A DNA stretch of 64,000 bases from an uncultured Mycoplasmatota bacterium (GTDB taxonomy: Bacteria > Bacillota_I > Bacilli_A > Izemoplasmatales > Izemoplasmataceae): assembly GCA_913062645.1 (NCBI GenBank), contig CAJXVW010000001.1, positions 372,001 to 436,000 on the forward strand. The letters run 5' to 3'. Each line of letters opens with the position of its first letter. Within the stretch, counting starts at the first letter, position 1. The position numbers were made by a program, and so were the translations under genes. A model generated the notes under the pieces. It ran no database searches. It was given only the letters and a program-made list of their open reading frames with translations, and was not told the origin of the DNA. Below, piece after piece: positions 49,610 through 61,664 of the stretch.

Positions 49610-50926
49610 TTACTTGTAGGTGTCATCAAGATACTGGGCTTCAAAACCATCACTGAAGACGATTTGATCGTCCATGGTATACCAGATCGCTTCAAGGTTG
49701 TCGATGCCGTTGACGAACGCCAGTCCATCAATGAGCGGCATCGTGAAGATCGCCGTCGAATAGATGTCGGCCAGCGCCGGATCGTCGGTGACGATGCTGA
49801 CGGATCGGCTGTAGCGCTCCGGCATCAAGGTGTTGGGGTTGATGATGTGATGGTAAATTTCGCCGTCGACTTCGTAATATTGTTGGTAATCGCCGCTCGT
49901 GACCAACTGGTCGCCAGCGCTCAGATAGACAGTCGCGTAATAACTGGTTTCAAAGGTCGGATCGGTAATCGCCAGCAGGAATTTGCCGTTTTCCCTTGTC
50001 GGGTGCGTACCGCCGATTGAGATGTTGCTTTCTCCGTTATTGAGAAGATACCCATGCAGATTCAGACCATCGAGGTACTCGATCAAAACCCTGGAAATGA
50101 AGCCTTTGGACATGCCACCGAGATCAAGCGACATGCCTGATTCCATCGTAATCGTGTGGTTGGTTTCATCCATCGTTATGCCGGCGGGATCAGTGAAGGC
50201 GTTTCTTGCCTGCAACTGTTCCATCGGCGGAACCTCGCAGACAGGATCAGTGAAGTTGGTAAGACATGATTCACGATAATCATGCCACAGCAACAGAACG
50301 GGTCCGAGGGCGATATTGAACAGATCATCGACCTCATCTTGATGATCGAGAGCGAATTGGATCATGTCGAACAATGGTTCGTCAATCACGTGAGTTGCCG
50401 TCGGATCGTCGTTGATCGTTTTCACATTCGTGACGTTATTGTAGTTGTTGTACTTGTCGCTGAGTTTGTGATAGTAGTCGAGTAGCAATTCAACATTGTC
50501 GAAGATGTTTGCAACAGCACCATTGTACGTGTCACCTTGGTAGTAGATGCGGAGTTTGACAACGGTATGCAGATACTGTGTCCAGAACACCTGGCATTCG
50601 GTGAGATCGGTGCCATCGATTACCGTGCATCCGTCTTCTCGATAATAGACGGTACGCGTGAGCGTCCGGACGTCCCCTTCATAGTCAAGAGTATACGTCA
50701 CCGTATAGTCTCCAGCTTGCGTCGGATCGATGTCGCTGTCAATCGTAACATACTCGGACAGGTCCTCGTTGTTGACCCTTGCCAAGAAACCTTTTTCAAC
50801 ATAATCAGAATCAACAGTATACGATACTTCTGATTCCCCGATTAAGTCAAAAATAAGTTCTTTACTGCATGCGGTCAAAGTAGTTGTGGTAATTACAATG
50901 AGTGCGATAATGATGAATTTCTTCAT
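49610..50926 (-). CDS. apbE: FAD:protein FMN transferase (ApbE) lipoprotein with N-terminal Ig-like domain
   Basis: 438 residues. Signal peptide with lipobox LTAC. Residues about 25-100 look like a bacterial Ig-like (DUF5011-type) beta sandwich; the catalytic ApbE domain occupies about 105-438. Key motifs are DLGGMSKGF, and LVTSGDYQQYYEVDGEIYHH with INPNTLMPER after it, the FAD- and metal-binding loops. ApbE attaches FMN through a phosphodiester bond to Thr/Ser of RnfG, RnfD and FMN-binding lipoproteins. All these targets are encoded within 10 kb here. The extra N-terminal domain is uncommon; usual ApbE is about 330 residues. Confidence 0.92.
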   Translation of the reverse strand: MKKFIIIALIVITTTTLTACSKELIFDLIGESEVSYTVDSDYVEKGFLARVNNEDLSEYVTIDSDIDPTQAGDYTVTYTLDYEGDVRTLTRTVYYREDGCTVIDGTDLTECQVFWTQYLHTVVKLRIYYQGDTYNGAVANIFDNVELLLDYYHKLSDKYNNYNNVTNVKTINDDPTATHVIDEPLFDMIQFALDHQDEVDDLFNIALGPVLLLWHDYRESCLTNFTDPVCEVPPMEQLQARNAFTDPAGITMDETNHTITMESGMSLDLGGMSKGFISRVLIEYLDGLNLHGYLLNNGESNISIGGTHPTRENGKFLLAITDPTFETSYYATVYLSAGDQLVTSGDYQQYYEVDGEIYHHIINPNTLMPERYSRSVSIVTDDPALADIYSTAIFTMPLIDGLAFVNGIDNLEAIWYTMDDQIVFSDGFEAQYLDDTYK

Positions 50927-51734: not shown

Positions 51735-52559
51735 TCAGTTTATGATTAATGTTTCAATTAACGCCAACAGATCGTCGTCGAAGCCAAGTTCGTATTCGAC
51801 GATATCATGGCTGCCACTGGTATTGGCCGTCATCATGAGGTCGTAGAGTTCATTCATCGTCATCGGGTGTGTAACGATGAACTCTTCCAGTATGGTCAAC
51901 TGGTCATTGTAGTTCGTCAGACCATCGTAGAAGGATCCTCTCAAGGTGCGATTGTCGCTATCGACGATATCAAAACGGATTGACGTGATGTACTTTCCCA
52001 AATCCAGTTCACCGCTGACAAAATAGCGTCGGTGTGTCGTCTCACTGAGAAAATCAGTGTAGAACATATCGCCGTATCGGTAATCACCAGTACCCAAAAC
52101 CTTGTATTCTCCCAAATACTCATAAAATCCGCCCAAAGAGAAAACTCGTTCGTATCCAAGATGCCACAACGCCGCCTGTACATACTCGCTGCGCATGCAG
52201 CCGTCTGCATACAGGAAAATTGCTTTGTCTTGTTTGAACAATCGTTCAAGCTCGTACTGGTCAATGATCTGTGAGGGTTCGAACGCGAACGTGTCTGAGC
52301 GCTCGAACACCCGGTAGTCCAGATAATCGAAAAAGGGGATCTGTTCGAATCCGTCGATGTATCCGGCAGCAAACTTGGCATCGAAATTACGCAAATCAAC
52401 GTACTGAACATCGTCACGGTACATGTATTCGTCCAGATTCTCCATCGTGATCACAGTTTCAGCCGTAATCGGCAACGGTTCGTCAACCGGTTCTTCAACA
52501 CACCCAAGCAGGCTAATCAAAGCCATTGGAACGACCAGGTAGAGTAATCTTTTCATCAT
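51735..52559 (-). CDS. Rhodanese-like lipoprotein with altered active-site loop
   Basis: 274 residues. The signal peptide ends in a lipobox LLGC. Residues about 38-155 are a rhodanese domain (DDVQYVDLRNFD, YIDGFEQIPFFDYLDY), clearly paralogous to the protein at 60792. Its active-site loop reads YADGCMRSEYV where the paralogue has MCGSGTRAGYV, so the canonical cysteine position is alanine and a cysteine sits three places later. The C-terminal region corresponds to the FMN-binding domain of the paralogue but lacks a recognisable TGxT-type attachment motif. It may be a diverged scaffold or sulfur carrier. The start could be one codon later. Confidence 0.8.
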   Translation of the reverse strand: MMKRLLYLVVPMALISLLGCVEEPVDEPLPITAETVITMENLDEYMYRDDVQYVDLRNFDAKFAAGYIDGFEQIPFFDYLDYRVFERSDTFAFEPSQIIDQYELERLFKQDKAIFLYADGCMRSEYVQAALWHLGYERVFSLGGFYEYLGEYKVLGTGDYRYGDMFYTDFLSETTHRRYFVSGELDLGKYITSIRFDIVDSDNRTLRGSFYDGLTNYNDQLTILEEFIVTHPMTMNELYDLMMTANTSGSHDIVEYELGFDDDLLALIETLIIN

Positions 52560-52689: not shown

Positions 52690-52734
52690 GTAATAGGTTA
52701 TATTTTTTTATATACAACTAGAGAGGTGAACACA

Positions 52735-53088
52735 ATGACAACAAAGTCGCAAGACGTAAACGCGTTGTTCGAACAGTGGATTCTTGATGCCGAAACGCGT
52801 CTTCAGGAAGAAGACATGTTCACAAAAATCAAGAGTTATCTGGAAAGCACGCACCCCGAAATCTGCGGCAAGTGCATCCCCTGTCGCGACGGCGTTCCCA
52901 AGTTGGAACGATTGTTCGACAAGTACATCCAAGGCGAAGCGACGCTCAAGGACCTGAAGGAAATCGAGCGCATCGTATATAACCTCCGGGCAAGCCGATG
53001 CAGCGTGGGGCTCGACATTGGCAAGAACATGGAAGTCATACTCGAAAACAACTACAATGTGCTGTACAGCCCCGTGAAAAAATACTAA
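52735..53088 (+). CDS. NuoF/HydB C-terminal-type 4Fe-4S protein, stand-alone
   Basis: 117 residues. The ATG at 52735 follows AGAGGTG; an in-frame GTG overlaps that site. Residues 25-115 correspond only to the last, iron-sulfur domain of NuoF or hydrogenase HydB: HPEICGKCIPCRDGVPKLERL supplies three cysteines and ASRCSVGLDIGKN the fourth. The NADH- and FMN-binding modules that make up most of NuoF (about 430 residues) are absent. It should be a small electron-transfer subunit. As first gene of the hydrogenase-Rnf operon it may bridge the hydrogenase and RnfC. Confidence 0.83.
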   Translation: MTTKSQDVNALFEQWILDAETRLQEEDMFTKIKSYLESTHPEICGKCIPCRDGVPKLERLFDKYIQGEATLKDLKEIERIVYNLRASRCSVGLDIGKNMEVILENNYNVLYSPVKKY

Positions 53089-54815: not shown

Positions 54816-56036
54816 ATGATAACCGAATACCGACAATATCTCGATCCGAAGAAAGTCTGGATCCCCCTTACCGACGGCACCTTCAAACTGGCCAGTGTCC
54901 AAGTCGAACAAGACGACGCCGTCACGGCCGGACAAATCGTCGCCTACAAGTACAGCGGCAAATTGAAGACGCCGGTCCTGGCATCGATCACCGGCACCGT
55001 CGTTGGGTTCGAAGAACGTCTCGACCGTTTCAACAAATACGTGGATCACATCGTCATCGAACGATCCGATTCCAACCAGATGATCACCCATGAAGGCCTG
55101 GACGACGATGTCCCGGCGGCCATCATCCGACAGCGCATCGAAGACTGCGGACTCCGTCAGTTCAACGTCGACGGCCTCTATACCGACATTGCATTCGAAC
55201 GACCCATCAAGCACATTCTCGTCAATGCCATCTACGCCAATGAACCGTTCATCTCAACGGACTACGATTTCGTCAAGCAACACGCCGAGTTGATTGCGGA
55301 TGGCATCAAGCTGTTGCAACACGCCGCGCATGCTGAAACAGCCACGCTGATCGTCGACAAGTACATGGACGAGCAAACCTTGGAAGCACTTGGCAAAGCC
55401 ACCGTCGACAAAGGCATCGAGGTCGTGCAAGTCAACACCAAGCATGTCAACGGATGGGATTACCGCATTGCCAAACAACTGGTTGGCGAAACGATTTCTC
55501 CCAATCTCATCGACAATCAGATTCTGTACACGTCCGCCTATGCGGCCAAGCACATTCACGATGCCGTCCGCAACGGTCGTCCGCTCATCGAGCGTCAAGT
55601 CGCCATCACCGGTGATGCGCTCCGCGTCAACGTGCTCTACGACGTGCGTCTCGGCACGCGCCTCGAAGATCTCGTCGACGATCTCGGCGGATACGACGAC
55701 GGCGGCACCTACATGTGTCACGTCGGCAGTTTTCTGTCCGGCGAACAGGTCGCCGCGGATTCCTTCAGCGTTACCGCGACCGTCGACACCATCGATGTCA
55801 GCGCGTATCGCCAGGAACCGGAAGAAGTCTGCATCAAATGCGGCGAGTGCAACGACATTTGCCCCGCCGGCATCCTACCACAGAACATCATGGATGCGGA
55901 ACTCCGCAATGTCAACGCCCGCATCGTCGATCTGCATACCGACGAATGCATCGAATGCGGTTTGTGCAGTTATGTCTGTCCCTCGAAAATCAACGTACTG
56001 GAATGGGTGCGGCGTGCCAAACGCCGCGTCGGATAG
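54816..56036 (+). CDS. rnfC: RnfC-like subunit lacking the NADH/FMN-binding loop
   Basis: 406 residues, a little short for RnfC. Both C-terminal 4Fe-4S motifs are intact: CIKCGECNDICPAGILP (from C339) and CIECGLCSYVCPS. The N-terminal barrel-sandwich domain (AGQIVAYKYSGKLKTPV) is also present. The region that should hold the glycine-rich flavin/NADH loop (canonical GLGGAxFPTHxK) reads GLRQFNVDGLYTDIAFERP at about residues 112-130, only the later NEPFISTDY remaining like the canonical ECEPYxTxDY. The second nucleotide motif (YPxGxEKQL, NNVGTA) is lost as well, as is GGPMMG (here GGTYMC). So it probably cannot use NADH. It follows the hydrogenase gene by 11 bases. Confidence 0.9.
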   Translation: MITEYRQYLDPKKVWIPLTDGTFKLASVQVEQDDAVTAGQIVAYKYSGKLKTPVLASITGTVVGFEERLDRFNKYVDHIVIERSDSNQMITHEGLDDDVPAAIIRQRIEDCGLRQFNVDGLYTDIAFERPIKHILVNAIYANEPFISTDYDFVKQHAELIADGIKLLQHAAHAETATLIVDKYMDEQTLEALGKATVDKGIEVVQVNTKHVNGWDYRIAKQLVGETISPNLIDNQILYTSAYAAKHIHDAVRNGRPLIERQVAITGDALRVNVLYDVRLGTRLEDLVDDLGGYDDGGTYMCHVGSFLSGEQVAADSFSVTATVDTIDVSAYRQEPEEVCIKCGECNDICPAGILPQNIMDAELRNVNARIVDLHTDECIECGLCSYVCPSKINVLEWVRRAKRRVG

Positions 56037-56045
56037 GAGGAAACC

Positions 56046-57146
56046 ATGGAATTTACAATGAAAAAGCCACCTATCATCAGCAACCAGCAACGTTCCTACA
56101 AACGCTCCTTGAGCTTGCACATCTCACTCATCATCGTCAGTCTGACGGCGATTTTCACCCGTGCCTTCATTGCCGTCCCCGAGGGCGAATCATGGGTCCC
56201 CGACCAGATGTTCAAGACATTCTTGATGTTGTTCACGGGAGCGCTCGTGAGCGTCCTCATCGAACTCGTCTACTCGATCAGCGAAGGCACCAGTCAGGAG
56301 TTCAGCGAATATCGCCGGCTCGTCGATCCGATCAACACCGGGTTGCTCATCGCGCTGTTGCTTCCGACATCGACGCCGATGTATGTCCTGATTCTGGCCG
56401 TCGCCGTCGGCGTGTACGTCGGCAAAATCGTGTTCGGTGGTTATGGCTATTACATCTTCAATCCGGCCTTGGTCGGAGTGCTGTTCGCCACCATATCGTT
56501 CGCCACTCAGATTGAGTACGGCGACACACCGCTCGTGCTCTTGAAACAAGCGATTGAAGGCCAATCCTATAACTTTGAACTGATCGATCTCGTCCTCGGC
56601 AACTATGTCGCCGTGGCGATCGGCAGCACCAGCGTCATCGTCTTGGGTGGCGTGTTCATCTATTTGTCCATTACCCGTGTCATCGATCTGCGACTGAGCG
56701 GCACGTTCGTGCTGGCGATTCTCATTATCAGCGCAATCGTCGGATTCGTCAACTTCGGAGGTGCGATGTGGAACTACGTCTTCGTCAACATGATCACCGG
56801 CTTGACGATGTTCGGCGCCGTATTCCTCGTCGCCGAAACCGTCAGCAGCCCCACCTCACGGGAAGCGAAACTGATTTACGCCGTCGTGATCGCGATCATG
56901 ACGATGATGGTCCGGATTCTCGGAACCGAAGTCGAAGGCGTCGTCTTCGCCGTGCTTTTGGGTAACATGCTGGCGCCGTTCTTGAACCGTACCGTCACCC
57001 GCAGCAACAAGAAACTGTTCATTCAAACCAGCGTAATCCTCGCGGTGGTTGTGCTTCTCACCGGCTTCGTCCTTGGCTTCATCCTGCAAGGACGGTTGAT
57101 TGAAGCCTTCGACGCGATGATTCAATGGGGAGGGATGATCGCATGA
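56046..57146 (+). CDS. rnfD: RnfD membrane flavoprotein subunit
   Basis: 366 residues with about nine or ten membrane helices. RnfD/NqrB core: VDPINTGLLIALLLPTSTP, GYYIFNPALVG, LVLGNYVAVAIGSTS and MWNYVFVNMITGLTMFGAVFLV. The FMN attachment site, canonical S/TGATPL, reads YGDTPL here, so the flavin-bearing threonine seems kept but the preceding residues have changed. Ribosome site TAGGAGG. RnfD carries covalent FMN and riboflavin in the membrane. Overlaps rnfG by 4 bp. Confidence 0.92.
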   Translation: MEFTMKKPPIISNQQRSYKRSLSLHISLIIVSLTAIFTRAFIAVPEGESWVPDQMFKTFLMLFTGALVSVLIELVYSISEGTSQEFSEYRRLVDPINTGLLIALLLPTSTPMYVLILAVAVGVYVGKIVFGGYGYYIFNPALVGVLFATISFATQIEYGDTPLVLLKQAIEGQSYNFELIDLVLGNYVAVAIGSTSVIVLGGVFIYLSITRVIDLRLSGTFVLAILIISAIVGFVNFGGAMWNYVFVNMITGLTMFGAVFLVAETVSSPTSREAKLIYAVVIAIMTMMVRILGTEVEGVVFAVLLGNMLAPFLNRTVTRSNKKLFIQTSVILAVVVLLTGFVLGFILQGRLIEAFDAMIQWGGMIA

Positions 57147-59050
57147 AACCAGTAAAAATCGTCGTAATGCTCCTGGTTGTCGTGCTCGTCTCATCGGTTG
57201 GCGTATACTTTGTCGAAAGCATCACCACGCCGATCATTGAAGACCGTCGCGCCCAGGAAATCGAAGAAGCATTGCAAAGCATATTCCCCGCCATCGACGG
57301 AACCACCGACACCGTCACCTCGGACACCGACGTTGATTTCGGCACCACCGGAATTACCGACGTACTCGTCATCCGTGATGGCGACGACAATGTCAAAGGC
57401 TATGTCTACACCATGACCTTCCGTGGGTTCTCCTCGGAGATCATCTATCTGGTCGGCATCGACGCCGCCGGGGCAATCACCGGCTATCAGACGCTCCAGC
57501 AGAATGATACCGCCGGATACGGCGCGCAAATCGCCGACGAAGAGAACTGGACCCAGTTCACGGGCATGTCAATCGAGACCGCCGGCAACGGCGACTTCGA
57601 CGGACTGGCCGGAGCCACGGTCACGACCAACGCATGGAAGTCTTCCTTTGAAACCCTCTTCAACTTCCATCTCGACACCTACGGCTACACGCCGATGACC
57701 GACGAACAACTGCTGCTGCAGAAGAAGCAGACACTTGTCGGCAATGATCTCACCATCGAGTCCTACACGCCGGATCTCGCGCCGGGCGACTACGGCATCA
57801 CCGCCGTTGACGTCGCCACCGACGGCACGGACAATCAGGCGGTCATCTATACCGTTGAGTTCGTTGGGTACAACGCCACCGGCAGCAACACCTATCTGAT
57901 TGCGTTCGACCTGGCGACCAATGAAGTGCTTGGCGGAACCGCCCTGTCGAGCGACGACACCGAAGGATTCGGTGCTCTAATTCTGGACAATGCCAACTGG
58001 GCGGATTTCCCCGGAATGAGCCTTGAAGATGCCGAAGACGGCAACTTCGACGGCATCGCGGGAGCGACCGTTACAACGCTGGCCTGGAAACAAAGTCTGG
58101 TCGACGTCGGCATGTTCCACCGCGTCGAGTTTCTCGGTGAAACGCCACGCACCGTCGAATCGCTGAGCGAACTGCTCTTCCCCGGAGCCGACCGCTTCAC
58201 CAACGTCACCAGTGAAAAGCCCTTCGGCACAATGATCGAGGGCGTCTATGACGTGTTCGACGATCTCGGTGCCAAACTGGGAACCGTCTACCACGTGCAG
58301 ACCATCGGTGCCAGTTACGCCGAACTCACGACCATCGAGTTCCTGATCGGCATCGACACCGCGGACAACTTCACCGGTTTCTACATGCTCGACGACTCGG
58401 AAACGCCGGGACGCGCCGACGCGTTCTACGCCGACGATTACGGCGATACCATCGAGGGTGTCGCGATCACCGATGATTATGAACTGGACGCCGTTGGCGG
58501 AAGCACGATTACGTACAACGTGATCACCGCGGCCATCGACGAGGTCGTCCATTATCATCAGACCAAATACATTCTCCTTCCGGAACGCATCATGGATGCA
58601 CTTGCGGAAGCATACCCCGGCGCCGTCTCGTTCGAGAGTGTCTACAGCGACTACGACTTCGACGCCACCATCAACAACCTGTACGCCGCCAAGGACGGCA
58701 GCGATGCCGTCATCGGTTACGTCTACTACGCCACCGCAACCGGATACTCCGGTAACATCATTGAATTCATGTGGGGCGTCGACAACAGCGGTGTCGCCCA
58801 GCAACTCTACATCATGAACGACACCCAGTCCTGGGACGACGCGACGTACGCCGGATACGACGGCGCGTTCGGTACCGATTTCAACACATCGACCTGGCTT
58901 GATCTGTTCGAGGGAGTGACCTTCCAGTCGATCCTCGACACCGAAGTCATCGATGCCGCCGGCGTGTCGACCACAACCGGTGGCATGAAAGTGTCGCTCG
59001 AACGAATCGCCCAATATCACGCCGATCAAAACGTAGGAGGTGCTAGCTGA
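57143..59050 (+). CDS. rnfG: Giant RnfG with four FMN-binding modules
   Basis: 635 residues, more than three times the usual RnfG (about 190). One N-terminal membrane anchor (about 5-25) is followed by four consecutive FMN_bind domains outside the cell. Their attachment motifs are GLAGATVTT (Thr159), GIAGATVTT (Thr309), AVGGSTITY (Thr455) and AAGVSTTT (Ser609), spaced about 150 residues apart. The first two are canonical and nearly identical in sequence; the third and fourth diverge but keep Gly and Thr/Ser. The ATG at 57143 follows GGGGAGGG; the frame extends 6 codons further up through that site. Four covalent FMN would make a flavin wire. Target of ApbE. Confidence 0.92.
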   Translation: MKPVKIVVMLLVVVLVSSVGVYFVESITTPIIEDRRAQEIEEALQSIFPAIDGTTDTVTSDTDVDFGTTGITDVLVIRDGDDNVKGYVYTMTFRGFSSEIIYLVGIDAAGAITGYQTLQQNDTAGYGAQIADEENWTQFTGMSIETAGNGDFDGLAGATVTTNAWKSSFETLFNFHLDTYGYTPMTDEQLLLQKKQTLVGNDLTIESYTPDLAPGDYGITAVDVATDGTDNQAVIYTVEFVGYNATGSNTYLIAFDLATNEVLGGTALSSDDTEGFGALILDNANWADFPGMSLEDAEDGNFDGIAGATVTTLAWKQSLVDVGMFHRVEFLGETPRTVESLSELLFPGADRFTNVTSEKPFGTMIEGVYDVFDDLGAKLGTVYHVQTIGASYAELTTIEFLIGIDTADNFTGFYMLDDSETPGRADAFYADDYGDTIEGVAITDDYELDAVGGSTITYNVITAAIDEVVHYHQTKYILLPERIMDALAEAYPGAVSFESVYSDYDFDATINNLYAAKDGSDAVIGYVYYATATGYSGNIIEFMWGVDNSGVAQQLYIMNDTQSWDDATYAGYDGAFGTDFNTSTWLDLFEGVTFQSILDTEVIDAAGVSTTTGGMKVSLERIAQYHADQNVGGAS

Positions 59051-59688
59051 TGGCCCGCAAACAGAAATCATTAAGTGATGTCTTCACCGCTGGCTTCTTC
59101 AAGCAGAATCCGGTCTTCGTACAATTTCTCGGCATGTGTCCGACGCTCGCCGTCACCGGCAGTGTCGAAAGCGCGATCGGGATGGGCGCGGGCGTCATCT
59201 TCGTCCTCGTGTTGTCGAATCTGATCATCTCGCTGATCCGCAGCGCCGTACCGCGCGAAGTCCGCATTCCGATCTACATCGTCGTCATCGCCTCGTTCGT
59301 GACGATGCTGGAAATGCTGATGAACGCATTTGTCCCCGATCTGGCGGCCCAGCTGGGAACCTTCCTCAGCTTGATCGTCGTCAACTGTCTGATTCTCGGC
59401 CGCGCCGAAGCGTTCGCTTCCAAAAACGGACCCGTGCGCAGCGTGCTGGACGGACTCGGCATGGGCATCGGGTTCACCGGTGGCATCACCTTGCTGGCGT
59501 TCTTCCGTGAACTGCTCGGCAAGGGATCAATCACCATCTGGGGCGATTTCGCCTTGAATCTGATTCCCAGCGACTTCCAGATCTCGATTCTCGTGGCTCC
59601 TGCCGGCGCGTTCCTCGTGTTCGGCATCCTTGTATCGCAGATCAACAAAATCAAACTCCGCCGTGCGGAGCAAGGCGAGGTGGCGTAA
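59050..59688 (+). CDS. rnfE: RnfE membrane subunit
   Basis: 212 residues, six membrane helices. The two half-membrane cysteine motifs that share a 2Fe-2S cluster with RnfA are present: FLGMCPTLAVTGS near residue 29 and VVNCLILGRAEAFAS near residue 115. The length and sequence are normal. The start overlaps the rnfG stop by one base, behind GTAGGAGG. It lies in canonical order (C-D-G-E-A-B). Confidence 0.95.
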   Translation: MARKQKSLSDVFTAGFFKQNPVFVQFLGMCPTLAVTGSVESAIGMGAGVIFVLVLSNLIISLIRSAVPREVRIPIYIVVIASFVTMLEMLMNAFVPDLAAQLGTFLSLIVVNCLILGRAEAFASKNGPVRSVLDGLGMGIGFTGGITLLAFFRELLGKGSITIWGDFALNLIPSDFQISILVAPAGAFLVFGILVSQINKIKLRRAEQGEVA

Positions 59689-59691
59689 TCC

Positions 59692-60303
59692 ATGGAATTC
59701 ATCGCAATCGCATTTGGCGCCATTTTCGTCAATAACGTCGTACTCAATCAGTTCTATGGTCTGTGCCCCTTTCTAGGGGTATCAACCAAGAAATCCAGCG
59801 CCTTCTCGATGGGCATGGCCGTTACTTTCGTCATCACGCTGTCGACGATGATTGCCTACACCATCTACAATCAGGTGCTCGTACCCAACAACATCGAATA
59901 TCTGTCCACGATCGTCTTCATCCTGGTCATCGCATCGTTCGTCCAGCTCGTGGAAATGGTCATCAAGAAATTCTCCAGCGCAATCTACAGCGCGCTCGGC
60001 GTGTATCTCCCGCTGATCACAACCAACTGCGCCGTGCTCGGGGTCGCCATCGACGTGACCGTCAACGGCACCGGTTCGCAGAAGTTGCTGATGGCCTCGG
60101 GCGTCGCACCGACCTTCTGGCAGGCGACCGTCTACGCCCTCGGCATCTCGCTCGGCTATGCGATCGTCATCTTCCTGTTCTCGGCGATTCGTGAAGAAAT
60201 GGACGCCTACCCGATCAAGAAGAACTGGCAAGGCATTCCGATCGCGCTCATCACCGCGTTCATCATGGCGATGATCTTTAGCGGATTCGGAGGGGTGATC
60301 TGA
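59692..60303 (+). CDS. rnfA: RnfA membrane subunit
   Basis: 203 residues, six membrane helices. Cysteine motifs YGLCPFLGVSTKK near residue 25 and TTNCAVLGVAID near 112 pair with those of RnfE. The family's FILVIASFVQLVEM helix is present. Normal length. Three bases separate it from rnfE and one base overlaps rnfB, so the membrane core of the complex looks complete and functional. Confidence 0.95.
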   Translation: MEFIAIAFGAIFVNNVVLNQFYGLCPFLGVSTKKSSAFSMGMAVTFVITLSTMIAYTIYNQVLVPNNIEYLSTIVFILVIASFVQLVEMVIKKFSSAIYSALGVYLPLITTNCAVLGVAIDVTVNGTGSQKLLMASGVAPTFWQATVYALGISLGYAIVIFLFSAIREEMDAYPIKKNWQGIPIALITAFIMAMIFSGFGGVI

Positions 60304-60608
60304 TGGTTGTCGTCATTGTATTGGCCGTTGTCATCAGTGTCGTCCTCGCGCTCCTCTTGTGGGGCGCCAGCGTGGTCTTCCATGTCGAGGAGGATCCGCG
60401 GCTGCAAGACATCATCGATTTGCTTCCCAATCAGAACTGCGGACTCTGCGGCAACCCCGGTTGCAAGGGGATGGCCGAGGCGATCCTCCGCGAGGACGCC
60501 AAACTGTCACAATGCAAGCCGGGCGACCAGGCAATGCGCGAAGACATTCGTGATTACCTGGCCGAGCATCCCAACGAAGCCGGCGAGTACGTGAAAGTCA
60601 AGATGTAA
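60303..60608 (+). CDS. rnfB: Minimal RnfB: membrane anchor plus one 4Fe-4S motif, no ferredoxin domain
   Basis: 101 residues, against 180-330 in usual RnfB. One membrane helix (about 2-24) is followed by the conserved LLPNQNCGLCGNPGCKGMAE and a fourth cysteine in SQCKPGD, the four-cysteine cluster of the RnfB hydrophilic domain. The two or more C-terminal CxxCxxCxxxCP ferredoxin clusters are missing. The gene ends with a normal stop codon followed directly by a terminator, and no cysteine-rich sequence follows in any frame, so this is not a fresh frameshift. Ferredoxin docking at RnfB is therefore doubtful. Confidence 0.92.
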   Translation: MVVVIVLAVVISVVLALLLWGASVVFHVEEDPRLQDIIDLLPNQNCGLCGNPGCKGMAEAILREDAKLSQCKPGDQAMREDIRDYLAEHPNEAGEYVKVKM

Positions 60609-60611
60609 CAC

Positions 60612-60643
60612 AAAAGCACCCCCTCGAGGGTGCTTTTTTTTTG
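60612..60643 (+). terminator. Rho-independent terminator of the hydrogenase-Rnf operon
   Basis: AAAAGCACCC / GGGTGCTTTT stem, 6-base loop, run of T. Confidence 0.92.
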
Positions 60644-60791: not shown

Positions 60792-61664
60792 TTACTCAGC
60801 TTGGCCGATTGCTTCTTCGAAGGCCAGTTTGAGACCATCAATCGATACGGTGACACCGGCGAAATCATCGAAATGTCCATCGGTGATTGCCCATGCATCG
60901 TCCCAACCTTGGTTGTCGAGGATGGCTTCAGCGAGGGTGTTCGCCTGGGTGAACCAGAAGTTTTCGCCGTCGGGGCTGGTATCCATGTCATATCCTTCGC
61001 CGAGAGCTTGCTTGGTGGTCCAGTATGAGTTGTCGGTCTCAGGATCGCGATCCGGATCTTTTTCATACAGGGCGTCGAGGATGACTTCTTCGATGCCGCC
61101 TTTTTCGTTGATGACGACGGTGGCCATGTAGCCGGAGTCTTCATCAAGACCGAAATAGGTGCCCGGGGTGTAGTCGCCTTTGACAAGCGGGTTCAGGGTG
61201 TATGATCCGTCGCCGAGGACTTTGTTGTCGCCCGTGTAGTCGGCGATGCCGCCAACGTTGTAGACGTTCTCGTATCCGAGTTCTTCGAGAGCGGCCATTA
61301 CATAGCCGGCACGGGTGCCGCTGCCGCACATCAAGAAGATCGTTTTGTCCATGTCGAACAGGGCGGTGAGGCCAGATTCGCTGAGGATTTCATCGGCTTC
61401 GAATTCCCAGTCGCCATCGCGAACGAGGATGCCTTCATACTCAAGATAATCGAAGAACGGGATGAATTCAAATCCTGCGATATATCCGGCGTTCATTTTG
61501 TCGTCGAAGTTGCGCAGATCAACATACTGGACGTCGGATCTACCGAGGTACTCATCGATGTTCTCCATGTCGACTTCGTCGGGAATGTCAGGCAGGTTGT
61601 TGCCGCATCCGGCGAGAGCCAATGTCAGAGCAAATGCTACAAACAATAATGCAAACTTTTTCAT
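60792..61664 (-). CDS. Lipoprotein with rhodanese and FMN-binding domains
   Basis: 290 residues. Lipobox LAGC (Cys20). Residues about 38-150 are a rhodanese domain with intact active-site loop MCGSGTRAGYV. Residues about 160-290 are an FMN_bind-like domain: strands around GYMATVVINEKGGIEEV and then DDFAGVTVSIDGLKLAF, whose AGVT matches the FMN-attachment site with a Thr. ApbE could flavinylate it. The combination suggests a surface protein that handles both sulfur and electrons, perhaps persulfide or polysulfide reduction. It is a paralogue of 51735-52559 and is driven by a perfect consensus promoter. Confidence 0.87.
   Translation of the reverse strand: MKKFALLFVAFALTLALAGCGNNLPDIPDEVDMENIDEYLGRSDVQYVDLRNFDDKMNAGYIAGFEFIPFFDYLEYEGILVRDGDWEFEADEILSESGLTALFDMDKTIFLMCGSGTRAGYVMAALEELGYENVYNVGGIADYTGDNKVLGDGSYTLNPLVKGDYTPGTYFGLDEDSGYMATVVINEKGGIEEVILDALYEKDPDRDPETDNSYWTTKQALGEGYDMDTSPDGENFWFTQANTLAEAILDNQGWDDAWAITDGHFDDFAGVTVSIDGLKLAFEEAIGQAE

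Follow-up and report, generated by a model that had tools for sequence, protein, structure and literature searches.

In the Rnf complex of Acetobacterium woodii, electrons are described as passing from ferredoxin to the polyferredoxin part of RnfB, from there to its B8 domain (residues 30-100) and on to the [2Fe-2S] cluster of RnfA/E, and RnfB mutants in the B8 cysteines are inactive (available text of PMC11889175). The C-terminal input domain of RnfB holds two to seven clusters according to a review (excerpts of PMC12174285). In Na+-NQR, the RnfB input is replaced or changed and NqrA, the homologue of RnfC, has no NAD site (available part of PMC4014512). RnfG proteins with several FMN-binding repeats, encoded near ApbE and with a proposed branch to outside acceptors, are known from multi-flavinylated RnfG clusters (eLife 2021; excerpts of PMC8238504). 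The announcement of Candidatus Izimaplasma ZiA1 mentions two Rnf complexes and hydrogenases (PMC6256511, in the portion available).

Here we describe an operon in a stretch of DNA of 64,000 nucleotides (the window) that shares with the Rnf ferredoxin:NAD+ oxidoreductase the gene order RnfC-D-G-E-A-B, the intramembrane cysteines and an FMN-binding RnfG, but differs from it in having an RnfC without FMN/NAD motifs and additional genes for a HydA-like protein and a HydB-type cluster domain. Whereas published RnfB proteins carry several more clusters, that of the window has no ferredoxin-docking domain (PMC12174285 and PMC11889175, in the parts available). The changes to RnfB and RnfC recall Na+-NQR, although RnfC keeps both [4Fe-4S] motifs, the RnfB shuttle is retained and a reading of the whole operon found no NqrF. 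The layout of HydA and the HydB cluster domain resemble the electron-bifurcating [FeFe]-hydrogenase HydABC, from which the operon is set apart by the missing flavin/NAD part of HydB and by altered H-cluster motifs in 9 of the 14 HydA-linked loci. A multi-flavin RnfG with ApbE nearby is already known from PMC8238504, but the word hydrogenase is absent from the text of that paper available to a word search, unlike the HydA-bearing operon of the window. Our searches of open-licence PMC papers brought up no account of an RnfB consisting of B8 alone, nor of an operon that joins HydA to RnfC.

Organisation of the operon

The operon runs from the HydB/NuoF-type cluster domain through the HydA-like protein and RnfC, D, G, E and A to a short RnfB (Table 1). 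The closest solved relative of the cluster domain is HydB of the T. maritima HydABC (residues 473-535). RnfG carries a flavin-attachment-like motif at residues 161, 311, 457 and 611; several such motifs occur in many, though not all, of its orthologues, and the RnfG of locus L103, 205 aa long, has none by the same pattern. The RnfD (56046-57146) has Ser where most comparison RnfD show Thr in a flavin-attachment-like D-P-V-T-S-P motif, and its orthologues are mixed at this site. Among the HydA-linked orthologues, the cluster cysteines are kept in 14/14 RnfA and likewise in 14/14 RnfE. Rhodanese-like lipoproteins border the operon on both sides (51735-52559 and 60792-61664) in the orientation opposite to it, and similar lipoproteins flank several orthologous operons.

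Table 1. Features of the operon and its surroundings, in window coordinates
Feature	Position	Strand	Evidence
ApbE flavin transferase, near the operon	49610..50926	-	PF02424, E 4.1e-49
Stand-alone HydB/NuoF-type [4Fe-4S] domain, 120 aa, without flavin/NAD domain	52726..53088	+	PF10589, E 1.7e-13
HydA-like [FeFe]-hydrogenase protein, 566 aa	53104..54804	+	PF02906, E 6.1e-55; alignment to A. woodii HydA1 and CpI
RnfC-like, 406 aa; two CxxCxxCxxxCP clusters kept; GxGGxGFP, ECEP and GGPMMG lost	54816..56036	+	
RnfD	56046..57146	+	PF03116, E 3.3e-54
RnfG, 641 aa, several FMN_bind-like repeats	57125..59050	+	PF04205, 2 stretches
RnfE, intramembrane cluster cysteines kept	59050..59688	+	PF02508
RnfA, intramembrane cluster cysteines kept	59692..60303	+	PF02508
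Short RnfB, 101 aa: membrane helix and one-cluster shuttle domain	60303..60608	+	ORF, Pfam, NCBIfam, solved-structure alignment, AF2 model
Predicted membrane helix of RnfB, residues 2-25	60306..60377	+	AF2 model
RnfB cluster cysteines C46, C49, C54, C71 (CGLCGNPGC...C)	60438..60515	+	Invariant in 18 short RnfB
Intrinsic terminator-like hairpin with T run, 3' of the RnfB stop	60612..60637	+	
Rhodanese-like lipoprotein, convergent neighbour of rnfB	60792..61664	-	PF00581

Relatives of the HydA-like protein at 46% identity or more were found in 12 of the 296 sampled genomes of the class (the match in G002 spans residues 1-315), and the eight-gene order is conserved in the HydA-linked stretches of these relatives. 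RnfB is visible in 11 of the 12 genomes; in G029 the contig ends before it. Together with L100, L102 and L103 this gives 14 HydA-linked RnfB loci (L101, a duplicate of L099, was not added), and all of them are short. A full-length RnfB at this locus in relatives, which the first-pass annotation had named as grounds for refuting its reading, was seen in none of the 14.

The short RnfB

The rnfB gene starts on the final base of rnfA. Residues 41-73 of the protein match Pfam FeS (PF04060; E 5.5e-11), and NCBIfam rnfB (TIGR01944) stays below its cut-off (65.8 vs 68.7 bits) and covers only positions 6-95 of the 190 in the model; the rnfB models are matched in their first half only. The gene had been read as a 101-residue RnfB of one helix and one four-cysteine cluster, with a terminator next to it and no ferredoxin-like clusters. 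The open reading frame, PF04060 and the hairpin bear out this description, and no ferredoxin motif is present downstream of the stop in the three forward frames. As the protein lacks the ferredoxin-like C-terminal domain and its additional [4Fe-4S] clusters, we file it, from its sequence, as a B8-only RnfB homologue and not as a full RnfB.

The AF2 model, a monomer prediction with a mean pLDDT of 85.5, consists of helix 2-25 and a compact cluster domain. The solved RnfB chains of A. woodii (9eri_B) and C. tetanomorphum (7zc6_B) have a helix and a one-cluster flexible domain in common with it, and align with the short RnfB over residues 8-85 or so only. A fold search with the model returned A. 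woodii RnfB at the top, with a TM-score of 0.52 over the query (E 6.6e-3), a modest value given the small size of the protein; chains of corrinoid iron-sulfur protein came next. The retained part corresponds to the B8 shuttle domain of the literature, which is the final step ahead of the RnfA/E cluster; what is missing is the ferredoxin-docking polyferredoxin.

The four cluster cysteines are invariant among 18 diverse short RnfB. Identity to the orthologue in L089 is 0.83, 0.92 and 0.28 at the first, second and third codon positions; such saturated third positions beneath a conserved protein indicate purifying selection. A frameshift, misassembly or pseudogene can for all practical purposes be dismissed, as no ferredoxin remnant lies downstream and the length is the same in orthologues and three paralogues. 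The first-pass annotation had considered the gene a likely settled minimal form, and the three short paralogues in the genome, the phylum-wide occurrence described below and the selection on the protein uphold that view against a sequencing error or pseudogene.

Distribution of short RnfB

The host genome has three PF04060 genes: the one at 60303-60608, one at L004:7954-8253 in a cydAB-RnfD-G-E-A-B cluster without RnfC, and one at L004:17503-17808 in a complete RnfC-D-G-E-A-B cluster. All three are short, which rules out a long RnfB elsewhere in this genome. The arrangement at L004:2830-8253, in which cydA-cydB precede RnfD-G-E-A-B with a short RnfB and no RnfC, has similar counterparts in L093, L186 and L187. 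The two Rnf complexes reported for ZiA1 agree with the two short RnfB that we find in G012.

Across the host and its relatives, PF04060 matches occur in 54 of 61 genomes, with RnfB-type frames of 95-149 codons. In a sample of 295 genomes of the phylum, with all matches listed, PF04060 was found in 99. RnfB-type frames are present in 90 of these (88 short, one tandem of 183 aa and one of 268 aa), the remaining genomes having only other proteins; the larger frames of the phylum (386-428 and >430 aa) were judged to be other proteins on the basis of a few examples (L039, L053, L183 and L184). Long RnfB in the phylum belongs to genus g84, with frames of 268-286 aa in four of five genomes and one cut by the contig end in the fifth (G252, 154), so short RnfB is not universal across the phylum. 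Tandem FeS domains, two per protein and without a ferredoxin domain, are seen in the RnfB of L055, L196 and L210 (184-192 aa).

The outgroup comparison consisted of named loci and solved structures. Taking the best 80 of 556 relatives, a choice that leans to short forms, 65 named loci are short: 43-59 aa follow their first Cys, and a ferredoxin motif is absent. The other 15 of these best 80 are long (213-271 aa) and come from Clostridia, Bacteroidota, Methanolobus, Aminicenantes and others. From Anaerorhabdus furcosa, Longibaculum muris, Allobaculum mucilyticum and Candidatus Izimaplasma ZiA1 we infer that the short-RnfB group falls within Erysipelotrichia and Mollicutes. The first-pass annotation had tied the short RnfB to the altered RnfC and the hydrogenase, a link that does not hold: the second rnf cluster of the host pairs a short RnfB with an RnfC whose GLGGSGFP, ECEP and GGPMMG motifs are intact, and the combination of short RnfB with intact RnfC is also found in Erysipelotrichia and Acholeplasmataceae.

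In a tree of RnfA+RnfE with 94 rows (a quick search, unrooted), the 79 short and 15 long forms part on one branch, with one change and 99% SH-aLRT, and the g84 rows sit on the long side. HydA-linked complexes form one group in this tree (14 rows, 99%) and cyd-linked complexes another. L127, titled Leptotrichiaceae, has a short RnfB and a small ORF in the rnfA-rnfB gap and is nested in the Erysipelotrichia part, perhaps through mislabelling or transfer. A single loss of the polyferredoxin part of RnfB, in the Rnf lineage that Erysipelotrichia and Mollicutes share, would account for this; the tree being unrooted, we prefer loss over gain because long forms are widespread elsewhere. The short RnfB is reduced relative to clostridial or bacteroidal RnfB, yet it is the norm within the host phylum and a settled variant common to nearly all relatives. 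We regard the Rnf of the window as a new form of the complex and not as a one-off reduction.

RnfC and the HydA-like protein

HydA-linked RnfC lack the GxGGxGFP loop together with ECEP and GGPMMG in 14/14 cases, and all of them retain both four-Cys [4Fe-4S] motifs. The GxGG loop is present in 10 of 11 comparison RnfC, the exception being that of Methanolobus. The AF2 model of the window protein still has the RnfC fold (mean pLDDT 75.9, low in the cluster tail 334-406) and has the RnfC of A. woodii and that of A. vinelandii as its nearest matches, with NqrA after them. Although the fold persists in the model, NAD is probably not the partner of HydA-linked RnfC, because the FMN/NAD motifs are lost.

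The motifs of the HydA-like protein read TSSCP, SSCTAKKYE and LMCPGGC: the first L1 Cys, the L2 MPC and the L3 MACxGGC of hydrogenases are not found, and the remaining motif cysteines are kept. Against the NCBIfam model for group A [FeFe]-hydrogenases (TIGR02512), the protein scores 278.1 bits, below the cut-off of 405.95. The N-terminal cluster cysteines are retained in all 14 HydA-linked loci. The first Cys of TSC(C/S)P, which we take to be the proton-relay residue, is found in CpI and A. woodii HydA1; it is replaced in 9/14 HydA including that of the window and kept in those of L090, L091, L092, L095 and L103. Since a Cys kept in active enzymes is lost in these nine, H2 turnover by the window protein is doubtful. 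The loss amounts to 3 changes on a tree of 13 rows in which few forks are well supported (L089 stands in for L088, from the same genome, and L092, which has no RnfA/E, was excluded). The two other HydA of the host genome have intact TSCCP motifs. The HydA-like protein at L098:1509-3242 has lost several H-cluster motif cysteines (TSIDP, MPTP, ASNSGC), the rest of its operon being kept.

Electron input to the complex

The reading that we favour, with moderate confidence, is of an RnfB made of a helix and the B8 shuttle, whose polyferredoxin part was lost once and on which soluble ferredoxin docks directly, in a complex whose RnfC has been rewired via the HydB-type domain to the HydA-like protein. 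A soluble two-cluster ferredoxin would replace the lost tethered domain and probably docks on the shuttle domain itself, which would hand on electrons one at a time to the RnfA/E [2Fe-2S] cluster and then to RnfG. The conservation of the operon leads us to think that the altered RnfC probably connects to the HydA-like protein by way of the HydB-type cluster protein. Electrons from ferredoxin could then exit via the HydA clusters or via the multi-flavin RnfG to outside acceptors. Direct docking is favoured by the presence of PFOR and a free-standing ferredoxin in the host genome; the long RnfB of genus g84 speaks against our reading, though the RnfA/E of that genus group with the long side. The first-pass annotation had held that ferredoxin would need another entry point. 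It was right in that RnfB has lost the part on which ferredoxin docks, but electrons must in any case reach RnfA/E through the domain that is kept, and ferredoxin could dock there.

The conserved eight-gene order, and N-terminal HydA clusters that are kept throughout while the H-cluster motifs drift, would also suit a path in which the HydA-like protein and the HydB-type domain, not ferredoxin, feed the RnfB shuttle. We find this unlikely: short RnfB also occurs in HydA-less rnf clusters, both in the host genome and phylum-wide, and RnfC keeps its clusters, its lost NAD pocket being a more plausible site for a replacement module to occupy. A different source of electrons might be sought in the ORF of the rnfA-rnfB gap, as a split-off input partner of the short RnfB. 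This ORF adjoins 89 of 139 RnfB-like places (duplicates and long forms counted) and its A2 profile matches 80 of 149 genomes, but it resembles FeoB-associated proteins only weakly and cannot be the general answer, because it is lacking in all HydA- and cyd-linked operons and in several short-RnfB families; we rate it very unlikely in this role.

Short RnfB might instead be a vestige without electron transfer, in a one-way complex leading from RnfC/HydA to RnfD and RnfG. Unidirectional partial Nqr/Rnf-like systems are on record (PMC8238504, in the text available), but the invariant cysteines of 18 diverse short RnfB, the kept cluster cysteines of RnfA and RnfE and the purifying selection on RnfB make such a vestige highly improbable.

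On a broader and more tentative reading, possible rather than likely, this Rnf branch shed both of its soluble-carrier modules, free ferredoxin taking the place of the RnfB polyferredoxin and the HydA-like protein with the HydB domain that of NAD at RnfC. The result would be a putative non-NAD ion pump with a multi-flavin outlet, fed by ferredoxin or, where the HydA motifs are intact, by H2; in several Izemoplasma-type lineages HydA would be decaying until it does no more than conduct electrons. Our findings suggest that an entire bacterial group can do without the half of RnfB that docks ferredoxin, that the core conserved in RnfB is the one-cluster shuttle and that the RnfC end is open to rewiring toward a hydrogenase-type protein. 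They parallel the proposed origin of Na+-NQR, with RnfB replaced and the NAD site of RnfC lost, and make a minimal Rnf electron path testable.

A small ORF between rnfA and rnfB

The product of the gap ORF is some 50-80 aa long, has one membrane-spanning helix and shows the pattern N(K)xTPxPxGC...CxxC...C. None of the HydA-linked or cyd-linked operons, that of the window included, contains this ORF, nor do the long-RnfB loci and several short-RnfB families. PF12669, the family of FeoB-associated Cys-rich proteins, matches 4 of 15 (best E 0.0037). In most relatives this small Cys protein lies beside rnfB and might be the real input there. It is a candidate new small Rnf subunit, seen at L004:17330-17503, L118:9820-10008, L139:9765-9980 and many other named loci.
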